DNA from: an uncultured Bacteroidales bacterium
GTDB taxonomy: Bacteria; Bacteroidota; Bacteroidia; Bacteroidales; UBA932
Length of the DNA stretch: 14,220 nucleotides
Assembly (NCBI GenBank): GCA_934675095.1
Contig: CAKUPC010000047.1
Location: 1 to 14,220, forward strand
Direction of reading: 5' to 3'
The position numbers were made by a program, and so were the translations under genes. The stretch's first letter is position 1; every line of letters begins with the position of its first letter. This document shows positions 3,282 to 11,677 of the stretch, piece by piece. The notes below the pieces were generated by a model. The model did no database searches. It saw only the letters and a program-made list of their open reading frames with translations, and was not told the DNA's origin.

Positions 3282-4253
3282 ATGAGCGAATCATCAAACA
3301 ACATTTCAGAGAAAGGCGTTTTCGTCGACCTTACCTACGATGCCGGATTCAAGGCAGTCTTTGCAGACGAAGCCAACAAGCACCTCCTAATCAGACTCCT
3401 GAACTGCGTGTTGCCAAACGAAGCAAGAGTCAAGGACATCAAAAGATACCTTGACAGAGAGCAGGGAAGAGATACGCAAACCGGCAAACGAACACAACTT
3501 GACATTATTTGTGAGGGGATTTCCGGAGAAAGATTCCTCGTAGAGGTTCAAAGGAGTTACGAGGCCGCATTTTTCCAGCGCTGTGTCTATTACGCGTCCG
3601 GAGCATATCACATAAGCCTCAAAGAAACAGAGAAATATACTGCACTCCGACCTGTCTATTCAGTAGGATTCCTTAACTACAGGCTGTCACACGAAAAGGA
3701 TGAGTTATGGAATACGGACAACCTCATCTCACACTATATTTTTTCAGAAAAAAGAACCGGAGAGATTGCTCCGTCAACAATTTCTGTTACCTTTGTGGAA
3801 TTAGAAAGGTTTACAAAGAGCGAGAAATCTTGCAAAAGTGAATTGGACTGGCTGCTTTATGTGTTCCGCCACAGTTCTTCTTTGATGGAGATACCGGCAG
3901 AAATACGCTGCAGGCCATTCTTTAACAAACTGTTGGAAGCCTGTAGAATCGCCGCCTTTTCAGAAGACAAGAAACTAAACTACGAACGGAGTATGATGCT
4001 GGAACGTGACATAATTGCGCAGCGCGAATATGCGCAGGAAACCGGATATGCCGAAGGTCTGGAGAAAGGTATCAAAGAAGGTATCGAGAAGGGTATGGAA
4101 AGAGGCATGGAAAAAGGTATGGAAAAAGGTATGGAAAAAGGTATGGAAAAAGCCGGCATTGAACATGCCAAGAACTTACTGAAAGCCGGTGTCTCACCGG
4201 AAATAATTGCAAACTGCATAGGACTTGACATTGATACCGTAAAGTCGCTGTAG
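3282..4253 (+). CDS. Rpn family PD-(D/E)XK nuclease / putative transposase
   Basis: The product (323 aa from the chosen start) has the fold signature of the Rpn/PDDEXK_2 family: an N-terminal FVDLTYDAGFKAVFAD, then LDIICEG (D74) and FLVEVQ (E88-V-Q90) as the D...ExQ active-site variant, then a helical region. E. coli relatives are DNA endonucleases that raise RecA-independent recombination; whether they transpose is unproven. The reading frame is open upstream to 3084, but that stretch overlaps the sppA terminator and is phenylalanine-rich, so I choose ATG 3282 (MSESSNN...). Residues 259-290 are eight four-residue repeats of G-[LIM]-[EK]-[KER], followed by a C-terminal helical tail (AGVSPEIIANCIGL) common in this family. 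The gene is more AT-rich than sppA, consistent with horizontal spread. It lies immediately outside the left 99-nt repeat. Confidence 0.85.
   Translation: MSESSNNISEKGVFVDLTYDAGFKAVFADEANKHLLIRLLNCVLPNEARVKDIKRYLDREQGRDTQTGKRTQLDIICEGISGERFLVEVQRSYEAAFFQRCVYYASGAYHISLKETEKYTALRPVYSVGFLNYRLSHEKDELWNTDNLISHYIFSEKRTGEIAPSTISVTFVELERFTKSEKSCKSELDWLLYVFRHSSSLMEIPAEIRCRPFFNKLLEACRIAAFSEDKKLNYERSMMLERDIIAQREYAQETGYAEGLEKGIKEGIEKGMERGMEKGMEKGMEKGMEKAGIEHAKNLLKAGVSPEIIANCIGLDIDTVKSL
4056..4151 (+). repeat. In-frame tandem repeat, eight 12-bp units
   Basis: Eight consecutive 12-bp units lie within the Rpn gene. The first four have diverged; the last three are identical copies of GGTATGGAAAAA (4116-4151), and the one before differs by one base. 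Because 12 is a multiple of three, slippage would change the number of GMEK repeats without breaking the frame. Confidence 0.9.
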
Positions 4254-4295
4254 GATATGCCGTGAGCCCCCAAAGGTTACGACAGTGAAGAAATC

Positions 4296-4394
4296 TATAA
4301 AAAGAGAAAAACTTTCATATAAAAATCGATAAATCTTCGATTTGCCATTGACAATATTCGGGTTTGTACGGAAATTCGCCGTGCAGACCCGAAT
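4296..4394 (+). repeat. 99-nt repeat element, left copy, ending in a 16-bp hairpin
   Basis: This stretch aligns without gaps to 10594-10692 at about 79% identity by my count (78 of 99). It begins TATAAAAAGAGAAAAA, is AT-rich for about 60 nt, contains ATTGAC, then forms a hairpin. The hairpin stem is 4356-4371 with 4379-4394 (16 pairs including two G-U) around the 7-nt loop AAATTCG. It lies 42 nt after the Rpn stop and 42 nt before the recombinase ATG, so it could act as a terminator, a leader RNA structure or a dispersed palindromic repeat. No run of T follows the stem, which argues against a plain terminator. Confidence 0.8.
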
Positions 4395-4436
4395 CTCGTC
4401 TTGTTCCGGGTCGTGCGACTTGTAAAGATTCGGGCA

Positions 4437-5039
4437 ATGGTTTATGGATACATCAGAGTGAGCAGCGACAAGCAGACCGTCGAGAACCAGCGGTTTGAGA
4501 TTACCAATTTCTGTGCGCGTGAGAGTCTGAACATCGACGGCTGGATTGAGGAGACCATCAGCGGCACGAAGTCCTACAGCAAACGGCAGCTCGGGCAGCT
4601 GCTCAAAAGGGTGCAGAAAGACGACCTGATAATCTGCGCGGAGCTGTCGCGTCTCGGCAGGAACCTCTTCATGATTATGGAGATTCTGAACATCTGCATG
4701 ACCCGCGAGTGCAAAGTCTGGACAATCAAGGACAACTACCGCCTCGGCGAGGACATCCAGAGCAAGGTTCTCGCCTTTGCCTTCGGTCTCTCAGCGGAAA
4801 TCGAGCGCAACCTCATCAGCCAGCGGACAAAGGAGGCGCTCGCCCGCAAGAAGGCGGAAGGCGTCACGCTCGGACGCCCCAAAGGCAAAAAGACCGCCGT
4901 GGAAAAGCACAAGCTCTACCCCAAGCGCAACCTCATCGCGGAACTCCGGGCAATCGGAATGTCCCAGAACAAGATTGCCCAAATCTGCAAAGTTGACCGC
5001 AACACCCTCTCGCGGTTCATAAGGTTCAAAATGACATAA
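4437..5039 (+). CDS. Serine-type DNA invertase, Mpi family
   Basis: The product is a 200-residue small serine recombinase of the resolvase/invertase family. The N-terminal catalytic domain has the nucleophile in YIRVSS (S9, the serine after Val, as in Hin) and the arginines of ELSRLGRN (R72, R75). The long E helix contains SAEIERNLISQRTKEAL, and the C-terminus is a helix-turn-helix (MSQNKIAQICKVDRNTLSRF). The sequence closely resembles what I recall of Mpi, the B. fragilis invertase that flips capsule promoters. An upstream in-frame TTG at 4401 exists, but MVYGYIRVSS at 4437 matches the family start. The gene lies just upstream of a restriction-modification gene whose specificity end is duplicated in inverted orientation, so its likely job here is to invert that segment; this is inference. 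It has no clear terminator. Confidence 0.9.
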   Translation: MVYGYIRVSSDKQTVENQRFEITNFCARESLNIDGWIEETISGTKSYSKRQLGQLLKRVQKDDLIICAELSRLGRNLFMIMEILNICMTRECKVWTIKDNYRLGEDIQSKVLAFAFGLSAEIERNLISQRTKEALARKKAEGVTLGRPKGKKTAVEKHKLYPKRNLIAELRAIGMSQNKIAQICKVDRNTLSRFIRFKMT

Positions 5040-5100
5040 AAAAAGACCCGCCCCGGTTCGCTGTTCAAGTCAGTAAAAATATTGGCGCGACTCAAGAGTA

Positions 5101-5125
5101 TCGGTAATTTTGCAAAAATTACCGA
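5101..5125. promoter_or_regulatory. Palindrome overlapping a candidate -7 element upstream of the R-M gene
   Basis: An 11-bp perfect inverted repeat, TCGGTAATTTT (5101-5111) and AAAATTACCGA (5115-5125), has a 3-nt centre. TAATTTTG (5105-5112) inside it fits the Bacteroidetes -7 consensus TAnnTTTG exactly. A promoter buried in a palindrome suggests a repressor operator or a structured site, but neither is shown. It lies 156 nt before the R-M start. Confidence 0.45.
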
Positions 5126-5248
5126 GTAAATCTTGGTCATATAGGAATGTATGGCGGTAAACATCATAAGATAGCCGTGCCGAAAAACTTTGCCGTCAAG
5201 GGAAAAACAATGGCTATGTTTATGGGGCCATAATTCACAAAAGATTCT

Positions 5249-5256
5249 TATATTTG
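5249..5256 (+). promoter_or_regulatory. Candidate -7 element for the R-M gene
   Basis: TATATTTG matches TAnnTTTG exactly and lies 24 nt upstream of the ATG at 5281, the short-leader spacing often seen in this phylum. I see no good -33 box. With the palindromic candidate at 5105, the R-M gene may have two promoters. The intergenic region (5040-5280) has no gene I can support. Confidence 0.45.
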
Positions 5257-5280
5257 CAGTCAATCCCATAAGACACTGCA

Positions 5281-8200
5281 ATGCCAGACATCACTATTCT
5301 CAAGTCCCTCAACAGGGCATACCGCCAACAGCCCGTGGCAAAAGCCGATTTCGATACATTCAAAAGACAGCTGAAAATCTTTTACGAACAGATTGAAACC
5401 GTTGACACAGAAGAAAAAGTGAAGGGAGATCTTATGGATTTCCTGAAGCTGACTTTCTACGGGCAGGACTACAAAGTTTCGCCAAACGGCAAAATTGATT
5501 GCGCGATACACCTCGGAAACAGTGTGGAAGCCCCTGTAGGGGTCATCTTTGAGGTAAAGATGCCGACAAACGTCTCCGAAATGGCACAGCGCGGTAACTT
5601 GAACCGCAAGGCAGTGCAGGAACTGCTGCTCTATTGGCTGCGGGAAAGGGTATCTAAGCGCAACATTGCACTCAAGAAACTGATTGTCACCAACATCTAT
5701 GAATATTTCATCTTCGATGCCCAGGAGTTTGAGCGTGCATTCTTTTCCAACAAGAAACTGCTCAAGCGCTTTGACGAGTTCAACTCAGGAGTTCTGACAT
5801 CGGAGAAGACAGATTTCTTCTACAAGGAAATCGCTGCCCCATACATCGTCGAGGTTGCAGATTCTCTCGAATACACATGGTTCGACATCCGCGACTATCG
5901 TAAGGCGCTCGACCGAGGAGACGACCGCAAACTAATTGGTCTCTACAAGGTGTTCAGCCCGGAAAACCTGCTGAAGAAACAGTTTCAGACGGACAGCAAC
6001 AAACTGAATGTCAAGTTCTACAGCGAACTGCTGTACATAATCGGACTTGAGGAAATCGAGGACAAGGAAGGCAGCAGGCGCATCATCGCACGGAAGAAGC
6101 CGTCCGAACGCAACCGCGCCTCGCTCATCGAGAGTACAATCACGATTCTCGACTCCGAAGATTGGCTTGACAGGATAGAAAAGCTCTCTCGTTTCGGAGC
6201 GGACAGGGACGAGCAGCTGTTCAATGTGGCCCTGTCCCTCGTCATCAACTGGGTGAACAGGATTCTGTTCATGAAGCTGCTTGAGGCACAGATGCTGAAA
6301 TACCACAAGGGAGACGGGCTCTATGCCTTCATGAAGCCGCAGCTGATTACTGACTACGACGAACTGAACAAACTCTTCTTTCAGGTCCTTGCAAAACGTC
6401 CGCAGGACCGGCAGGAGCACATAAATGCGAAATACGGACGCATCCCCTACCTCAACAGCTCGCTTTTTGAACTCAGCCCTCTTGAACGGCAGACGCTCCG
6501 CATCAGCAACCTTGAAGACTCCGAAATGCCGCTTTTCTCCGGCACCGTGCTTCGGGACGGCAACAAGCCGCGTCACAAGACTCTTCCGACGCTTCGCTAT
6601 CTTCTCGAATTTCTTGATGCCTACGACTTTTCCGGCGAGGGCGCTGACGAGATTCATGAAAACGCAAAAACCCTCATCAATGCTTCGGTTCTCGGGCTCA
6701 TATTCGAAAAAATCAACGGCCACAAGGACGGTTCGGTGTTCACGCCGGGAGCAATCACGATGTGGATGAGCCGCGAAACTCTAAAGAGGGCTGTCGTCAG
6801 GAAGTTCAACGAGACTATGGGATGGACCTGTCGGGATTATGATGCCTTGCGGGACAAGGACATCGACGACATACCCCGCGCAAACGAAATCGTGGATTCA
6901 CTGCGAATCTGCGACCCGTCCGTAGGCTCCGGGCATTTTCTCGTGTCAGTGCTTAACGAAATTATATGGATTAAATATGACCTCGGCATTCTGATGGATC
7001 AGGACGGACGACGCATCAAGAAACAGGACTACAGCATCGTCATCGAAAACGACGAACTTATGGTGTCCGACGAGGAGGGAAATCCGTTTTCATATATCCC
7101 GGGAAACGCTGAAAGCCAGAGGGTTCAGGAGACATTGTTCACAGAGAAACGCAAAATCATCGAAAACTGCCTGTTCGGCGTCGATTTGAATCCGAATGCA
7201 GTGAACATCTGCCGTCTGCGTCTGTGGATTGAACTCCTGAAAAATGCGTTCTACACCAAGGAGAGCGGATTCACCGAACTTGAGACACTGCCGAACATTG
7301 ACATCAACATAAAGGTCGGCAACTCGCTGCTGCACAAGTTCGGACTCAATCAGGACATCAGCGAAATATTGCGCAAGACCGGTCTGTCCATCGGAGATTA
7401 TAAGCGTGCCGTGAGCAACTACAAGAACGCGCACAACAAGGAGGAAAAGCGCGAACTTGACGAGCTCATTCGCAGGATTAAGACAGGGCTCAAGACTGAA
7501 ATAAGCCGTCACGACCCGCTCCTGCTGCGCAAGACTGCGCTCGAGAAGGAACTCTACGACCTTGAAGCTCCCGAACTCTTTGAGGTCAGCCGCAAGGTGT
7601 CGGTGCAAAACGAAAAGAAGAAAAAGGCGCTGCGCGGCAAAATTGCGGAAATTCAGAAGGAACTTGACGAGATTCGCGACAACAGGATTTACATAGAGGC
7701 GTTCGAGTGGCGCATTGAGTTCCCCGAGGTTCTTAACGAGGACGGACGCTTCATCGGCTTCGACTGCATCATAGGCAATCCTCCGTACATCCAGCTCCAG
7801 AAAATGGGAGGCAGCGCCGATGCCCTCGCGAAGATGGGTTACAGGACTTATGAGCGTACCGGAGACATCTATTGCCTCTTCTATGAACTCGGCCATGACC
7901 TGCTGAAACCTGACGGAGAACTATGTTTCATTACCTCAAACAAGTGGATGCGGGCTGGCTACGGAGAGAAGACCCGCGCATTCCTGACCGGCAGCACGAA
8001 TCCGCTGCTGCTCATCGACTTTGCCGGAGTGAAGGTCTTTGAAAACGCCACCGTTGATACGAACATCCTACTTTTTTCCAAGTCGTCGAACGCCGGAGAC
8101 ACCCTCTGTGCGGTGGCCACAAACCAGAACCGGGATGTCATCAATAATATGAGCGATTTCCTTCAGCAGGCCGGGTGCCTCTGCGGCTTCTCCGGGAGCG

Positions 8201-9078
8201 GGGCCTGGGTGGTGCTGTCGGAGATTGAGCAGAACATAAAAAAGAAGATTGAGACCGTTGGAAAACTTTTGAAGGATTGGGACATCAACATATATCGCGG
8301 CATCCTGACTGGGTATAACGATGCCTTTATCATTACCACTGAAAAGAGGAATGAGATACTTTCAAATTGTAAGGATGAGGAGGAGCGGACGAGAACCGCG
8401 GAGATTATACGACCGATTTTGAGAGGACGCGATATTAAACGTTACTCTTATGAATGGGCCGGCCTATGGCTTATTGCCACCTTTCCATCTAAGCACTATG
8501 ATATAGAGCAGTATCCTGCCATCAAAGAGCACCTGCTCTCATTCGGAATGGAACGCCTTGAACAGACAGGGAAAGAATATATTGTTAATAGACAATATAT
8601 TAAAGCACGAAAGAAGACTAACAACAAATGGTTTGAGACTCAGGACAGCATAAGTTATTGGGAGGATTTTGGAAAACCGAAAATCGTGTGGGGCGAAATA
8701 TCTGACAGAAGTAAATTTGCATTAGACAGAGCAGGGCAATATGTTCCAGAAGCAACAACTTTCCTGCTCGTGGGGAGCGACATTGAATACTTGTGCTGTG
8801 TCTTAAATTCCGCAGTAGCCGAGTGGTATTTTTCTCTCATTGGTACAACTACCGGGGTCGGAACCATACGATGGAAAAAATACACCATAGAGAAACTCCC
8901 TATTCCTAGCTGCAATGATGAAATAAAAGTGCAGGTAAGATGCCTGATGAAAGATTTCTACAATGGAGAAGTCTGTAGAGATACTTTTTCCACTGCAATC
9001 AATGCCTTAATCAATAAGGTTCTATTGTTGGACACTGACGAAGTTGAGTATATAGAAAAGTACACCCATACAATATAG
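5281..9078 (+). CDS. Type IIG (Eco57I-like) restriction-modification enzyme, currently active specificity state
   Basis: This single-chain restriction endonuclease and adenine methyltransferase has 1265 aa. An N-terminal nuclease domain shows KIDCAIH (D73) and FEVKMP (E91-V-K93), a PD-(D/E)XK-type site. A helical linker leads to the methyltransferase: FTPG (F487), SAM motif I DPSVGSGHF (D545), FGVDLNPNAVNICRLRLWIELL, a coiled-coil insertion (about residues 715-800), FEWRIEFPEVL, and the catalytic NPPY (833-836) typical of N6-adenine methylation. From about residue 965 follows a TaqI-like target-recognition region, ending near LPIP and the C-terminus. This last region is duplicated as a silent inverted cassette, with perfect inverted repeats at codons around 971-984 and 1128-1138. 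The DNA after about 8290 is visibly more AT-rich than the methyltransferase part, as if specificity modules were acquired separately. The Type IIG call is solid; the recognition sequence cannot be predicted. No separate HsdR, HsdS or BREX genes are present. Confidence 0.9.
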   Translation: MPDITILKSLNRAYRQQPVAKADFDTFKRQLKIFYEQIETVDTEEKVKGDLMDFLKLTFYGQDYKVSPNGKIDCAIHLGNSVEAPVGVIFEVKMPTNVSEMAQRGNLNRKAVQELLLYWLRERVSKRNIALKKLIVTNIYEYFIFDAQEFERAFFSNKKLLKRFDEFNSGVLTSEKTDFFYKEIAAPYIVEVADSLEYTWFDIRDYRKALDRGDDRKLIGLYKVFSPENLLKKQFQTDSNKLNVKFYSELLYIIGLEEIEDKEGSRRIIARKKPSERNRASLIESTITILDSEDWLDRIEKLSRFGADRDEQLFNVALSLVINWVNRILFMKLLEAQMLKYHKGDGLYAFMKPQLITDYDELNKLFFQVLAKRPQDRQEHINAKYGRIPYLNSSLFELSPLERQTLRISNLEDSEMPLFSGTVLRDGNKPRHKTLPTLRYLLEFLDAYDFSGEGADEIHENAKTLINASVLGLIFEKINGHKDGSVFTPGAITMWMSRETLKRAVVRKFNETMGWTCRDYDALRDKDIDDIPRANEIVDSLRICDPSVGSGHFLVSVLNEIIWIKYDLGILMDQDGRRIKKQDYSIVIENDELMVSDEEGNPFSYIPGNAESQRVQETLFTEKRKIIENCLFGVDLNPNAVNICRLRLWIELLKNAFYTKESGFTELETLPNIDINIKVGNSLLHKFGLNQDISEILRKTGLSIGDYKRAVSNYKNAHNKEEKRELDELIRRIKTGLKTEISRHDPLLLRKTALEKELYDLEAPELFEVSRKVSVQNEKKKKALRGKIAEIQKELDEIRDNRIYIEAFEWRIEFPEVLNEDGRFIGFDCIIGNPPYIQLQKMGGSADALAKMGYRTYERTGDIYCLFYELGHDLLKPDGELCFITSNKWMRAGYGEKTRAFLTGSTNPLLLIDFAGVKVFENATVDTNILLFSKSSNAGDTLCAVATNQNRDVINNMSDFLQQAGCLCGFSGSGAWVVLSEIEQNIKKKIETVGKLLKDWDINIYRGILTGYNDAFIITTEKRNEILSNCKDEEERTRTAEIIRPILRGRDIKRYSYEWAGLWLIATFPSKHYDIEQYPAIKEHLLSFGMERLEQTGKEYIVNRQYIKARKKTNNKWFETQDSISYWEDFGKPKIVWGEISDRSKFALDRAGQYVPEATTFLLVGSDIEYLCCVLNSAVAEWYFSLIGTTTGVGTIRWKKYTIEKLPIPSCNDEIKVQVRCLMKDFYNGEVCRDTFSTAINALINKVLLLDTDEVEYIEKYTHTI
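8192..8233 (+). repeat. Outer inverted repeat, copy in the active R-M gene (42 bp)
   Basis: Starting CCGGGAGCGGGGCC and ending GATTGAGCAGA, these 42 bases are identical to the reverse complement of 9868-9909. The flanks are similar but mismatched, including synonymous sites. The block encodes GSGAWVVLSEIEQ in the same frame in both copies (G972 here). It sits at the entrance to the target-recognition region, so an inversion through it would keep the reading frame. Confidence 0.95.
8661..8693 (+). repeat. Inner inverted repeat, copy in the active R-M gene (33 bp)
   Basis: These 33 bases (GGAGGATTTTGG... to ...GTGTGGGG) are identical to the reverse complement of 9441-9473, while the sequence on both sides has diverged. 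They encode EDFGKPKIVWG (E1128-G1138) in the same frame in both copies. The block splits the target-recognition region into two halves that could be exchanged separately. Confidence 0.93.
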
Positions 9079-9440
9079 TATCTCCGAGGCTTTATATGTC
9101 TTACATATTATGCAAGTAGTCAATCTCTTCTACTGTAAGACCATATAATTCACAAATGCGTTTGTCTATTTGCTCATACATTTCATTGTCAACCAAACTT
9201 ATTATGGTGTCCTTGACTTCTACACAAGGCTCTGGTATTGGCAACAGCTCAACAAACATAGGCTTATATTCAAAATATCCACCATTTCGAGTTACGCCTA
9301 ATTTGCGAATATAAAAATCTGCCAATGTTGAATTTAACACAGCCAACAAAAATTTGTCCCCAGGAACAATCATTGTTGACGGCGCATTTATAAAAAAGTC
9401 TTTTTCAAGAAAAGCATAATTTGCCGATAATGAAAGATTT

Positions 9441-9473
9441 CCCCACACGATTTTCGGTTTTCCAAAATCCTCC
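9441..9473 (-). repeat. Inner inverted repeat, copy in the silent cassette (33 bp)
   Basis: This is the reverse complement of 8661-8693 with no mismatch. It encodes EDFGKPKIVWG from residue 157 of the TTG-started frame. Inversion between the pair would flip 8661-9473 (813 bp) and exchange only the C-terminal halves of the two recognition regions. Confidence 0.93.
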
Positions 9474-9867
9474 AAATAAGCGCAGTTGCGCAAATTGTAT
9501 GGTGTGTCGCCTTGGTCGGCTCTGTCCTTGATTTTGTCCCAATATTGGTCAAGGTGAGCCTTGATTGCGGGATAATCATTGATGTCAATTCGTGGAATCT
9601 TGCCCTTAACACCATTATGGGTGTTGATTAGCCAGAGATTTGCCCAATCATATCCATACCTCTTAATATCCCTGCCGCGCAAAATCGGTCTAAAAATGTT
9701 CGATGTTTTCGTGCGTTCCTCTTCGGTTCGGCATGAGGCGAGAATCTCATCACGCTTCTGAGTTGTAACTATGAACGCATCGTTGAAGCCTGTTTTGATT
9801 CCATAGTTGATGCTCACATCCCAATCCCTAAGCGGTTTTCCAACCGCCTCGATCTTGCGCTTTATGC

Positions 9868-9909
9868 TCTGCTCAATCTCCGACAGCACCACCCAGGCCC
9901 CGCTCCCGG
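9868..9909 (-). repeat. Outer inverted repeat, copy in the silent cassette (42 bp)
   Basis: This is the reverse complement of 8192-8233 with no mismatch. Inversion between the pair would flip 8192-9909 (1718 bp) and replace the active C-terminal 294 residues with the stored 268 residues, in frame. Confidence 0.95.
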
Positions 9910-10056
9910 CGAAGGCGCAGCGGCATCCGGCCTGCTTCAAAAAATCGCTCTTTAAGTCGCATACTGTTCACTTTTTCTTCAAATATTTCTCCCAAAGTCT
10001 TTTTTTTCAGATGCAGATTTACTTAATTTGCATTGTCAGTAAATCGTTTAGATATT

Positions 10057-10299
10057 ATGCCAACAGTTTTTATCGTATTCGGATTCATTTTCAAATTTTA
10101 CTCGGATGACCACACTCCAATCCATATTCATGTCATAAAAGATGGATGTGAGGCGAAATATAATTTGGAACCGTGTGTCAGGATGGTTTTCAATCATGGT
10201 TTCAAGAAACACGAAATATCGATGATTGAGAGTGTTATCGAAGAAAATGTCGATGTCATCAAGTCAAGATGGAACGAATACTTTAACGAAGCAAAATAA
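10057..10299 (+). CDS. DUF4160 family protein
   Basis: The product (80 aa) starts MPTVFIVFGFIFKFYSDDH and contains TPIHIHVIKDG, the hallmark aromatic and His-x-His stretch of DUF4160. It ends in a helical EISMIESVIEENVDVIKSRWNEYF. The frame is open upstream to a TTG at 10033, but the ATG at 10057 matches the family's MPTV start. The stop is 2 nt before the next ATG, so the two genes are surely cotranscribed. DUF4160 and DUF2442 genes are often adjacent in bacteria and have been thought toxin-antitoxin-like; I know of no firm function. A TTAATTTG motif (10023-10030), one mismatch from the Bacteroidetes -7 box, could serve as the promoter. Confidence 0.8.
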   Translation: MPTVFIVFGFIFKFYSDDHTPIHIHVIKDGCEAKYNLEPCVRMVFNHGFKKHEISMIESVIEENVDVIKSRWNEYFNEAK

Positions 10300-10301
10300 C
10301 A

Positions 10302-10565
10302 ATGAAACACATAGTGGCAAAAGTATGGATTGAAGACGGCAAAGTTTTCGCAAAAACAAATGACGGACTTGTCGCCAGTTATCCGATTGCTCTTTGGAAA
10401 CGCCTCTCTGCGGCAGCACCGGAGCAACTGAACGATTTCTATCTTTCGTATTCTGGAATTCATTGGCCTCAACTGGATGAAGATTTGAGTTTTGAAGGTA
10501 TGTTTCATTCATCCGGGCTATGCGAAAGAACCGAGACAGAAGACAGCGTCTGCTACATAGCCTGA
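10302..10565 (+). CDS. DUF2442 family protein
   Basis: The product (87 aa) has a short beta-strand N-terminus (MKHIVAKVWIEDGKVFAKTNDG), then YPIALWKRLSAAAPEQLNDFYLSYSGIHWPQLDEDLSFEG. The IHWPQLDEDLS segment is the signature end of DUF2442 proteins. It is the usual partner of the preceding DUF4160 gene and follows it after 2 nt. No catalytic residues or DNA-binding motif can be pointed to, and the function is unknown. The two genes lie between the silent specificity cassette and the right 99-nt repeat, so they seem part of the same accessory island. Confidence 0.8.
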   Translation: MKHIVAKVWIEDGKVFAKTNDGLVASYPIALWKRLSAAAPEQLNDFYLSYSGIHWPQLDEDLSFEGMFHSSGLCERTETEDSVCYIA

Positions 10566-10593
10566 AAGCCAATATCAAAAAATCGAAAAAACA

Positions 10594-10692
10594 TATAAAA
10601 AGAGAAAAATCTTCATATAAAAAACGATAAACCTTCGATTACCTATTGACGAAATACGAGTTTGTGTGCAACTTCGCTCCGCAAACTCGTAT
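10594..10692 (+). repeat. 99-nt repeat element, right copy, ending in an 11-13-bp hairpin
   Basis: Same orientation and length as 4296-4394. The terminal hairpin pairs 10654-10664 (ATACGAGTTTG) with 10682-10692 (CAAACTCGTAT) perfectly and could extend by two more pairs. Relative to the left copy, several stem positions changed on both sides so that pairing is kept. It lies 28 nt after the DUF2442 stop and 7 nt before the ATG of the helix-hairpin-helix gene. TTGTTTTT follows the stem, so this copy could terminate transcription. Confidence 0.8.
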
Positions 10693-10699
10693 TGTTTTT

Positions 10700-11677
10700 A
10701 TGAAAAAGGATGTACTGAAATCTTCGTTTGTGGTCGGGTCGATTGCGCTGGTTTTCCTGATTGTGGGGTATCAGGTGGCGGTGTTCGTGCATAGCGCTGC
10801 AGTGGCGAAGATTGCGGCGGACAGGGACTGTCCGGACACGGTGTTTGTGGCTGTCGGGCAGGAGAATGTGCGTGAACGGCCAAAGCCGGGCGTTAAAATG
10901 GGAAGCGCCGTGTCTGCGGAAAGTAATCGGAACTGGAGCAGCGATGAAGGGCACGGGAAGTATGATAAGGACGGGCTGTCGTGTGGCAAGGACGCTGAAG
11001 TGCAGGTCATTGAGCGGCGGAGCGGGGCAAATAGTGCGGTCGGGGAGAAGGTTCGGGAGAATGTGCCGAGGCGGAAAGTCGAGTCGTTCAGGTTCAACCC
11101 GAATACGGCGAGCTTGGAAGACTTGCAGCGGCTCGGATTCTCGCTCAAGCAGGCACAGTCCATAGACAACTACAGGAACAAGGGCGGAAGGTTCAGGAGA
11201 AAGTCCGACTTCGCCAAGTCGTTTGTGGTCTCGGACTCGATTTACAGGCGGTTGGAGCCTTACATTGAGATTCCGAAGCTTGACATCAATCTGGCGGACT
11301 CGGCCGCGTTTGATGCGCTGCCCGGCATCGGAGGGTGGTTCGCGCGACAGATGGTGGCATATCGGGAACGGCTCGGAGGGTATTCCTATCCGGAGCAGCT
11401 GATGGAAATCCGCAATTTCGACATGGAGAAGTTCGACAAGCTGAGCGACCTAGTATTTGTCTCGCCGCAGACGGTTGTCCCCTACCCCCTCTGGACGCTG
11501 CCGGAAGAGGAACTGAAACGGCATCCGTACATCGGCCCGGCGGCGCACGGAATCGTGCTGTACCGAAATTCGCAGCCGAAATCGCAGTGGAGCATCGACG
11601 CTCTGAGAAAGAACAGGGTCCTCACGGAAGAGGCGGCGACAAAGCTTGGGCGATGCTTCATCGAAGAACCTGCGTAA
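10700..11677 (+). CDS. Membrane-anchored helix-hairpin-helix (ComEA-like) protein
   Basis: The product (325 aa) begins with a membrane segment (about residues 9-30), so the remainder is predicted to lie outside the inner membrane. A low-complexity linker with many charged residues (about 35-130) leads to helix-hairpin-helix units of the ComEA type. The first starts FNPNTASLEDLQRLGFS (F132), the second DINLADSAAFDALPGIGGWFARQMVAYRERLGGY (shown as domain position D195 to about Y228), and a third, more diverged unit contains HPYIGPAAHGIVLYR (H275 on). Such units bind DNA backbone without sequence specificity; ComEA is a DNA receptor in natural transformation, though a competence role is unproven here. 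The frame is open to 10646, but that lies inside the 99-nt repeat, so I use ATG 10700. Confidence 0.82.
   Translation: MKKDVLKSSFVVGSIALVFLIVGYQVAVFVHSAAVAKIAADRDCPDTVFVAVGQENVRERPKPGVKMGSAVSAESNRNWSSDEGHGKYDKDGLSCGKDAEVQVIERRSGANSAVGEKVRENVPRRKVESFRFNPNTASLEDLQRLGFSLKQAQSIDNYRNKGGRFRRKSDFAKSFVVSDSIYRRLEPYIEIPKLDINLADSAAFDALPGIGGWFARQMVAYRERLGGYSYPEQLMEIRNFDMEKFDKLSDLVFVSPQTVVPYPLWTLPEEELKRHPYIGPAAHGIVLYRNSQPKSQWSIDALRKNRVLTEEAATKLGRCFIEEPA

Follow-up and report, generated by a model that had tools for sequence, protein, structure and literature searches.

Can a restriction-modification (R-M) enzyme that carries nuclease, methyltransferase and specificity region on one chain exchange its recognition part by DNA inversion? 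The question is raised by a 14,220-nucleotide stretch of an uncultured Bacteroidales bacterium (assembly GCA_934675095.1, contig CAKUPC010000047.1), hereafter the window, in which a Type IIG R-M gene stands tail-to-tail with an inverted partial copy of its own C-terminal region, the cassette, and is accompanied by a serine recombinase gene (Table 1). The original prediction, made from the letters of this DNA, described an invertible segment at 8192..9909 that flips between two states at a perfect 42-bp inverted repeat. We consider it very probable that the locus encodes a single-chain Type IIG enzyme with a modular, invertible specificity region, driven by the invertase at three short sites, here called A, B and C. 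It looks like a modular specificity switch rather than a two-state flip, with up to eight forms, a number that is arithmetic from three sites; the clearest full set on one identical body has four. Specificity inversion as such thus gained comparative support (an inverted segment, fused and orphan regions, isoforms, a linked invertase), and the two-state flip gave way to a modular scheme. The segment limits changed as well: the homology of the two arms starts at 8151/9950, and the invertase gene and the 33-bp repeat at site C enter the picture for the first time.

The enzyme matches the PADLOC model REase_MTase_IIG with 913 bits over residues 9-1214, and the motifs NPPY and DPSVGSGH can be read in its sequence. 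A search of PDB sequences returns methyltransferases that cover residues 826-1187 at most, and the PHROGs matches of the locus are to DNA methyltransferase and DNA invertase families. Together with the Pfam domains, this places a putative nuclease, an N6-adenine methyltransferase and a specificity region on one chain, the arrangement that defines Type IIG, the nuclease part of the assignment resting on the PADLOC model. Two other assignments were rejected. The enzyme reaches 76.6 bits against NCBIfam PglX of the bacteriophage exclusion (BREX) systems, where the cut-off is 500 (no search was aimed at other BREX genes), and no HsdS, HsdM or HsdR family of a Type I system is among the matches listed for the window proteins scanned.

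The cassette is as originally described, a partial C-terminal copy without ATG or methyltransferase part. Its Pfam content is TaqI_C only, its listed start is the TTG at 9940 and its frame is that of the gene; because of its partial length and the missing ATG, it is presumably silent. The locus therefore has the anatomy of an invertible gene, that is, inverted repeats within coding sequence, in the same frame, with a partial copy. Predicted inversion products stay in frame: recomputing the product at A gives the same 1239 amino acids as the original prediction, inversion at C would give 1250, and inversion at A and then at C 1254. The AlphaFold model of the C-terminal 445 residues has low confidence (mean pLDDT, the predicted local distance difference test score, 64; pTM, the predicted template modelling score, 0.37), and therefore A, B and C could not be placed on the fold.

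Where in the repeats would strands be exchanged? The original prediction put the recombination point in the 42-bp tract, and its description of the tract holds. The repeat is perfect, and among codons for amino acids identical in both arms the same codon is used in 13/13 cases inside it and in 31/62 in the remainder of 8152-8460 (Fisher p = 4.6e-4, an optimistic value since the tract was selected for its identity). The tract sits inside a 76% identical inverted repeat (8151-8360 / 9741-9950). In the seven loci laid side by side (the window, L004, L007, L009, L061, L062 and L063), arm homology begins about 40 bp farther out than the tract; the arms turn alike at the same point within one base, GAGCG, and this border has the same codon phase in 14/14 arms. 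Outside the border, the flank of the cassette arm is the end of the invertase gene in all six loci other than the window. Codon conservation is not raised over the whole tract, one codon of which (8218) passes 1e-3. The 42-bp repeat was thus rejected as the main crossover point and is probably a gene-conversion tract; crossover at the three short sites A, B and C is probable instead, because both arm homology and codon conservation point there.

Codon choice was compared in 75 amino-acid-conserved columns of 16 specificity regions (eight loci with two arms each, three of the loci being close kin), with p values that assume independent sequences, though the sequences are related. The lowest values are those of the S of LSD at site A, which is AGC in 16/16 regions (expected 0.17, p 7.5e-13), and of the R of RPI at site B, CGA in 15/16 (p 2.8e-9). 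Next after A and B comes the E of EDF at site C, GAG in 14/14 (p 1.7e-7). Six columns use a single codon; one, at 8152, belongs to A, and those at 8656-8680 belong to C and the position next to it. Fifteen columns fall below 1e-3, of which one is at A, four are at B, four at C and six elsewhere. Site B differs from A and C in codon phase, for which protein conservation alone is no easy explanation. The sites share a pattern, GASSRWTTT, which was derived from them; it occurs 8 times in the window against 3.2 expected (at least 8 in 2/200 shuffles), six of the eight occurrences are A, B and C of both arms, and a looser form is present at all three sites in 15/16 specificity regions.

Are such inversions seen? 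The original prediction had advised looking for both orientations in related genomes; they are seen between related genomes and as fused/orphan and isoform sets, and not in this organism. The locus L007 (B. oleiciplenus) is 96.8% identical to L062 over 2880 bases of constant part, and between them a segment of about 850 bp is inverted at 97.9% identity, ending at site C, with collinear sequence on both sides. L007 and L063 likewise differ by an inverted segment, at 95.9%. That L062 carries the C-end segment of L007 in inverted form (97.9%) is hard to reconcile with ordinary horizontal import of new specificity regions instead of local inversion, a reading that we regard as very unlikely; import would more readily explain the B-C segment of L063, which is the main difference between L062 and L063 and for which no alignment was obtained with either the gene or the cassette of L062. 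As for site A, L014 (B. bouchesdurhonensis) and L008 (B. xylanisolvens XB1A) are 99.6-99.97% identical outside a 1325-bp methyltransferase-bearing stretch that is inverted between them; the overlap at the breakpoints is 3 bp long and consists of the AGC of site A. By this junction, strand exchange at site A of the window would fall at 8152-8154. In L014 (7348-10878) the Type IIG gene is broken by this inversion of its methyltransferase part, L008 keeps the unbroken order, and similar frames of 1216 residues occur in four other genomes.

Contig ends were surveyed in ten contigs, chosen for ending or beginning inside gene or cassette (L010 and L013, which end in the constant part, were left out). 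In four of the ten the end coincides with a site core or its edge. L001 stops at B, L003 at A and L114 at C, none of them with a base beyond, and L002 stops at the outer margin of C. The ends of L115, L117 and L119 lie 45-67 bases past C, L116 begins 28 bases before B, and L006 and L012 end elsewhere. Ends at the sites fit a mixed population, and repeats may break assemblies for other reasons.

Isoforms with exchanged segments also occur in nature. Isoforms and orphan cassettes were counted among the matches listed, the best 120 of about 8000 in each of three listings. The nearest enzyme, P0001, has a body 95% identical and a specificity region 64% identical to those of the window. The 216 full-length proteins in two of these listings fall into 92 clusters by linkage at 99% constant-part identity; 23 clusters have at least two members, and more than one segment combination occurs in 12 of the 23, a segment being counted as different when less than 90% identical. 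The 779 within-cluster pairs comprise 364 alike in all three segments and 415 that differ in at least one: in A-B only (301), C-end only (68), A-B and C-end (39), all three (6), or A-B and B-C (1). For example, P0015, P0022, P0046 and P0057 share a 100% identical body and an identical B-C segment and represent the full 2x2 set of A-B and C-end, with segment borders that fall at A, B and C in the alignment. In 9 of the 12 switching clusters each variable segment has exactly two alleles, which argues for local exchange over import; the 3-4 alleles of a segment in the other three are what import would lead one to expect.

The C-terminal end of a full-length enzyme is matched by 16 of the 120 orphan cassettes at 97% identity or more and by 47 at 90% or more, counts that may include genes truncated where a contig ends. 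In enzymes of 1238-1239 residues these matches begin at residue 958, three residues past the site A serine. The full-length enzymes nearest to the window cassette are mostly 1235-1243 residues long, close to the predicted 1239-residue inverted product.

What would drive the exchange? The recombinase of the window scores 333 bits against NCBIfam NF009949, the Mpi family (cut-off 272), belongs to Pfam Resolvase and matches DNA invertases in a search of PDB sequences. Its linkage to cassettes was followed in 14 loci from a survey for the constant part in species genomes and in whole-genome sets, where the constant part is matched in 30/297 (E at most 1e-150), 9/158 (1e-150) and 9/399 (1e-200) genomes and the cassette in 21/393 (1e-40); these sets overlap. 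An inverted copy of its own specificity region is present in 9/57 loci, the window included. Eight of the nine (again with the window) have 2 kb or more of sequence past the gene, and each of the eight has an invertase, which lies directly beyond the cassette in the seven other than the window. By comparison, one of the 27 loci with at least 2 kb of room and no detected copy has an invertase, and that locus, L005, shows a weak inverted match of the specificity region; the 27 are not independent, since one and the same broken gene is found in L014 and L069, and L008, L011 and L082 resemble it as far as they were compared. In 12/12 genomes, all selected because they contain such a locus, the cassette-linked invertase is the one that best matches that of the window (75-84% identical), and the eight other matches in these genomes are 42-59% identical. 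Linked invertases group on one side of a tree branch with support 93/81, below the 95/80 mark, and in 90% of bootstrap trees.

In the main rival explanation the repeats exchange sequence by RecA-dependent homologous recombination and by gene conversion, and the invertase serves another site. Long identical tracts in the arms (42 bp in the window, 32-80 bp around B in seven relatives, 142 bp at A in L061) look like conversion, and the short match of the window's A arms, described below, also suits it. RecA alone would leave unexplained why an invertase accompanies the copy in 8/8 loci, why these invertases form a distinct linked subfamily, why the junction at site A is 3 bp long, and why codon conservation peaks and contig ends coincide with the site cores; we think this rival quite improbable. 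The Mpi-family invertase is the likely engine of specificity switching. An Mpi-type site, ARACGTTCGTN, is absent in the window, which has one match with one mismatch where 2.06 are expected by chance.

Some of these genomes show the system in part, one (G188) with a cassette fragment and three (G985, G268, G952) with an enzyme body that is cut short or lies on a different contig. The locus L118 carries, at 6073-6903, an invertase of the linked type and a cassette fragment 93% identical to the window cassette over 74 residues; no enzyme gene was found in its 14 kb. An invertase homologue in L141 (59%) was rejected as a member of the system; its neighbours look phage-like by eye, one of them like Dam methylase.

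Several observations weigh against a modular, invertase-driven switch. The A arms of the window match over only 9 bp, less than in 6/7 relatives, and because of this site A of the window may be weakened. The window invertase lies upstream of the gene, unlike those of the relatives beyond the cassette. The ninth locus with a copy, L002, shows a weak inverted match (28%) on a contig that ends 401 bases beyond the gene. Six of the 15 columns below 1e-3 lie outside the sites (8161, 8218 in the 42-bp tract, 8269, 8329, 8395 and 8428), and the shared pattern describes the sites rather than tests them. No direct A-A inversion was seen between two genomes compared. No invertase was found near L014 or L008, and the specificity region of each is short, so that this pair tells where the cut fell, not which enzyme cut. 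The protein matches were picked by likeness to the window. Among them, the full-length enzymes nearest to the window cassette by score are 70% identical (up to 75% over part), the exact cassette occurs only as an orphan (P0121, 8 contigs) in a listing that admits cassette-size proteins only, and no second orientation of the window locus appeared in the protein comparisons.

It could also be reasoned that the family switches and that the window copy is frozen, its cassette a fossil. Such a relic would account for the diverged A arms, the displaced invertase and the single orientation seen. It would not be expected to keep invertase, enzyme and cassette all as open frames and site C perfect over 33 bp, and the 42-bp tract points to recent homogenisation; we consider a relic unlikely.

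For the modular switch the following scheme is proposed. In its most far-reaching form, which has a roughly even chance of being right, a single invertase would act on three mutually exclusive sites within coding sequence, which in the window share the half-site GASSRWTTT and differ in their presumed central bases (GC at A, CC at B, GG or CG at C); like would recombine with like, giving at most eight enzymes in which cutting and protection retarget together. In the scheme as a whole, one intact gene and one tail-to-tail cassette would have these crossover sites in common, A at the border of the constant part and B and C inside the specificity region. By pairing each site with its like (A-A, B-B, C-C), the Mpi-family invertase would invert nested segments, and each inversion would put a piece of the cassette in frame with the expressed gene. 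The A-B, B-C and C-end segments could thus be exchanged separately, in up to 2x2x2 combinations. Serine recombinases keep unlike site pairs apart by their crossover bases, and a cut at the AGC of site A would put the bases that distinguish the three sites at the crossover. The 42-bp tract would result from gene conversion after inversion events. We infer that the invertase acts in this way on the three sites, that this happens in the present bacterium, and that the DNA target changes as a result; with one recognition region shared by nuclease and methyltransferase, both activities would be redirected together.

Table 1. Coordinates of the invertase, enzyme, cassette, sites and repeats in the window.
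Feature	Position	Strand	Basis
Serine recombinase, master DNA invertase Mpi family	4437..5039	+	NCBIfam NF009949, Pfam Resolvase; open reading frame listed from TTG 4401, ATG at 4437
Type IIG restriction enzyme-methyltransferase, 1265 amino acids	5281..9078	+	PADLOC REase_MTase_IIG; Pfam DUF7149, DUF7814, Eco57I, TaqI_C
Constant part as far as site A, with nuclease and methyltransferase	5281..8151	+	Homology border at site A; relatives' isoforms with 100% identical body diverge just past A
Active specificity region, 308 codons counted from site A	8152..9078	+	TaqI_C, reading frame
Specificity cassette, presumed silent, tail-to-tail to gene; 282 codons counted from site A	9101..9949	-	TaqI_C; without ATG at start
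Site A, gene arm (GAGCGATTT)	8151..8159	+	Homology border in 7 loci; L014 vs L008 junction; S codon AGC 16/16
Site A, cassette arm	9942..9950	-	Homology border; GASSRWTTT pattern
42-bp identical tract, gene arm	8192..8233	+	Perfect inverted repeat
42-bp identical tract, cassette arm	9868..9909	-	Perfect inverted repeat
Site B, gene arm (GACCGATTT)	8411..8419	+	Codon peak 8407-8418; relatives' isoform border; L001 contig end; pattern
Site B, cassette arm	9682..9690	-	Pattern
Site C, gene arm, 33-bp perfect repeat (GGAGGATTTT...)	8661..8693	+	Counterpart is breakpoint of L007 vs L062 inversion
Site C, cassette arm, 33-bp perfect repeat	9441..9473	-	Perfect inverted repeat

The gene order of the window is SppA, PDDEXK_2 (Rpn family), serine recombinase, Type IIG enzyme, inverted cassette, DUF4160/DUF2442, a helix-hairpin-helix protein (ComEA-like), recA and dnaK, where the names SppA, ComEA, RecA and DnaK come from reading the translations and not from a family search. 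The DUF4160 and DUF2442 genes adjoin each other at 10033-10565, a pair that we take to have a toxin-antitoxin-like look. Direct repeats of 93 bp (4287-4379 / 10585-10677, 81% identical) bracket the stretch from the invertase through enzyme and cassette to DUF4160/DUF2442 and may delimit an inserted element. Both overlap hairpins that are predicted to be strong (z -6.2 and -5.3), and the stem bases differ between the copies. A search of 4200-10800 for RNA families gave 0 matches at the gathering threshold.

How does such a system relate to known ones? Pneumococcal SpnIII and the invertons of B. fragilis are phase-variable Type I hsdS systems, and in phase-variable Type IIG systems of Campylobacter jejuni a simple repeat switches expression and leaves the recognition region unchanged. 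Milman, Yelin and Kishony are said to have predicted, in 2023, Type II R-M loci made of a gene and an inverted partial copy as targets of gene-altering programmed inversions. Among Type I systems, specificity genes that undergo inversion are well known (PMC5903667, PMC11892184, PMC3077401), for example in the hsdS invertons of Mycoplasma pulmonis (PMC3077401) and in 13 species with inverting Type I systems (PMC5903667). The window shares with them inverted repeats in specificity genes and extra copies and, on the scheme proposed, site-specific recombination and combinatorial forms; in contrast to them, specificity here is the C-terminus of a one-chain nuclease-methyltransferase, without HsdS and with a linked Mpi-type serine invertase. 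The master invertase Mpi of Bacteroides fragilis flips promoters at ARACGTTCGTN (PMC8375218; Mpi also in PMC4747536). It is likewise a serine recombinase of the NCBIfam Mpi family from Bacteroidales, and differs in that its site pattern is absent from the window. Domain movement (DOMO) in the Type I and Type IIG S genes of Helicobacter pylori shifts specificity modules at repeats (PMC3077401), as would happen here; the Type IIG systems with DOMO have a separate S subunit, unlike the present enzyme, and the available part of that source mentions no invertase or inverted cassette for them. Bacteroides intestinalis has a restriction/modification system among its phase-variable regions (PMC8375218), a feature it would share with the window. 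In the open-licence literature searched, by titles and abstract openings, no invertible single-chain Type IIG enzyme is described, and a three-site, invertase-linked version was not met.

Both the enzyme family and orphan specificity regions are frequent in the protein database searched, with at least about 8000 scored clusters each (some orphans possibly being fragments) and named members in Akkermansia, Bacteroides and Phocaeicola. Three proteins of orphan-cassette size and type (P0169, P0173 and P0201) stand in Akkermansia muciniphila records, and because of these the arrangement may extend beyond Bacteroidales. The swappable segments, with their natural borders, offer a way to assign the bases of a target to the parts of a Type IIG specificity region that recognise them. 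If the target changes, a one-chain R-M enzyme would expose its own chromosome to a nuclease against which it is not yet methylated, and each inversion would remodel the methylome and the phage barrier of the cell. How a cell survives retargeting, and whether it serves gut bacteria to vary phage defence and methylomes within a clone, become directly testable questions.

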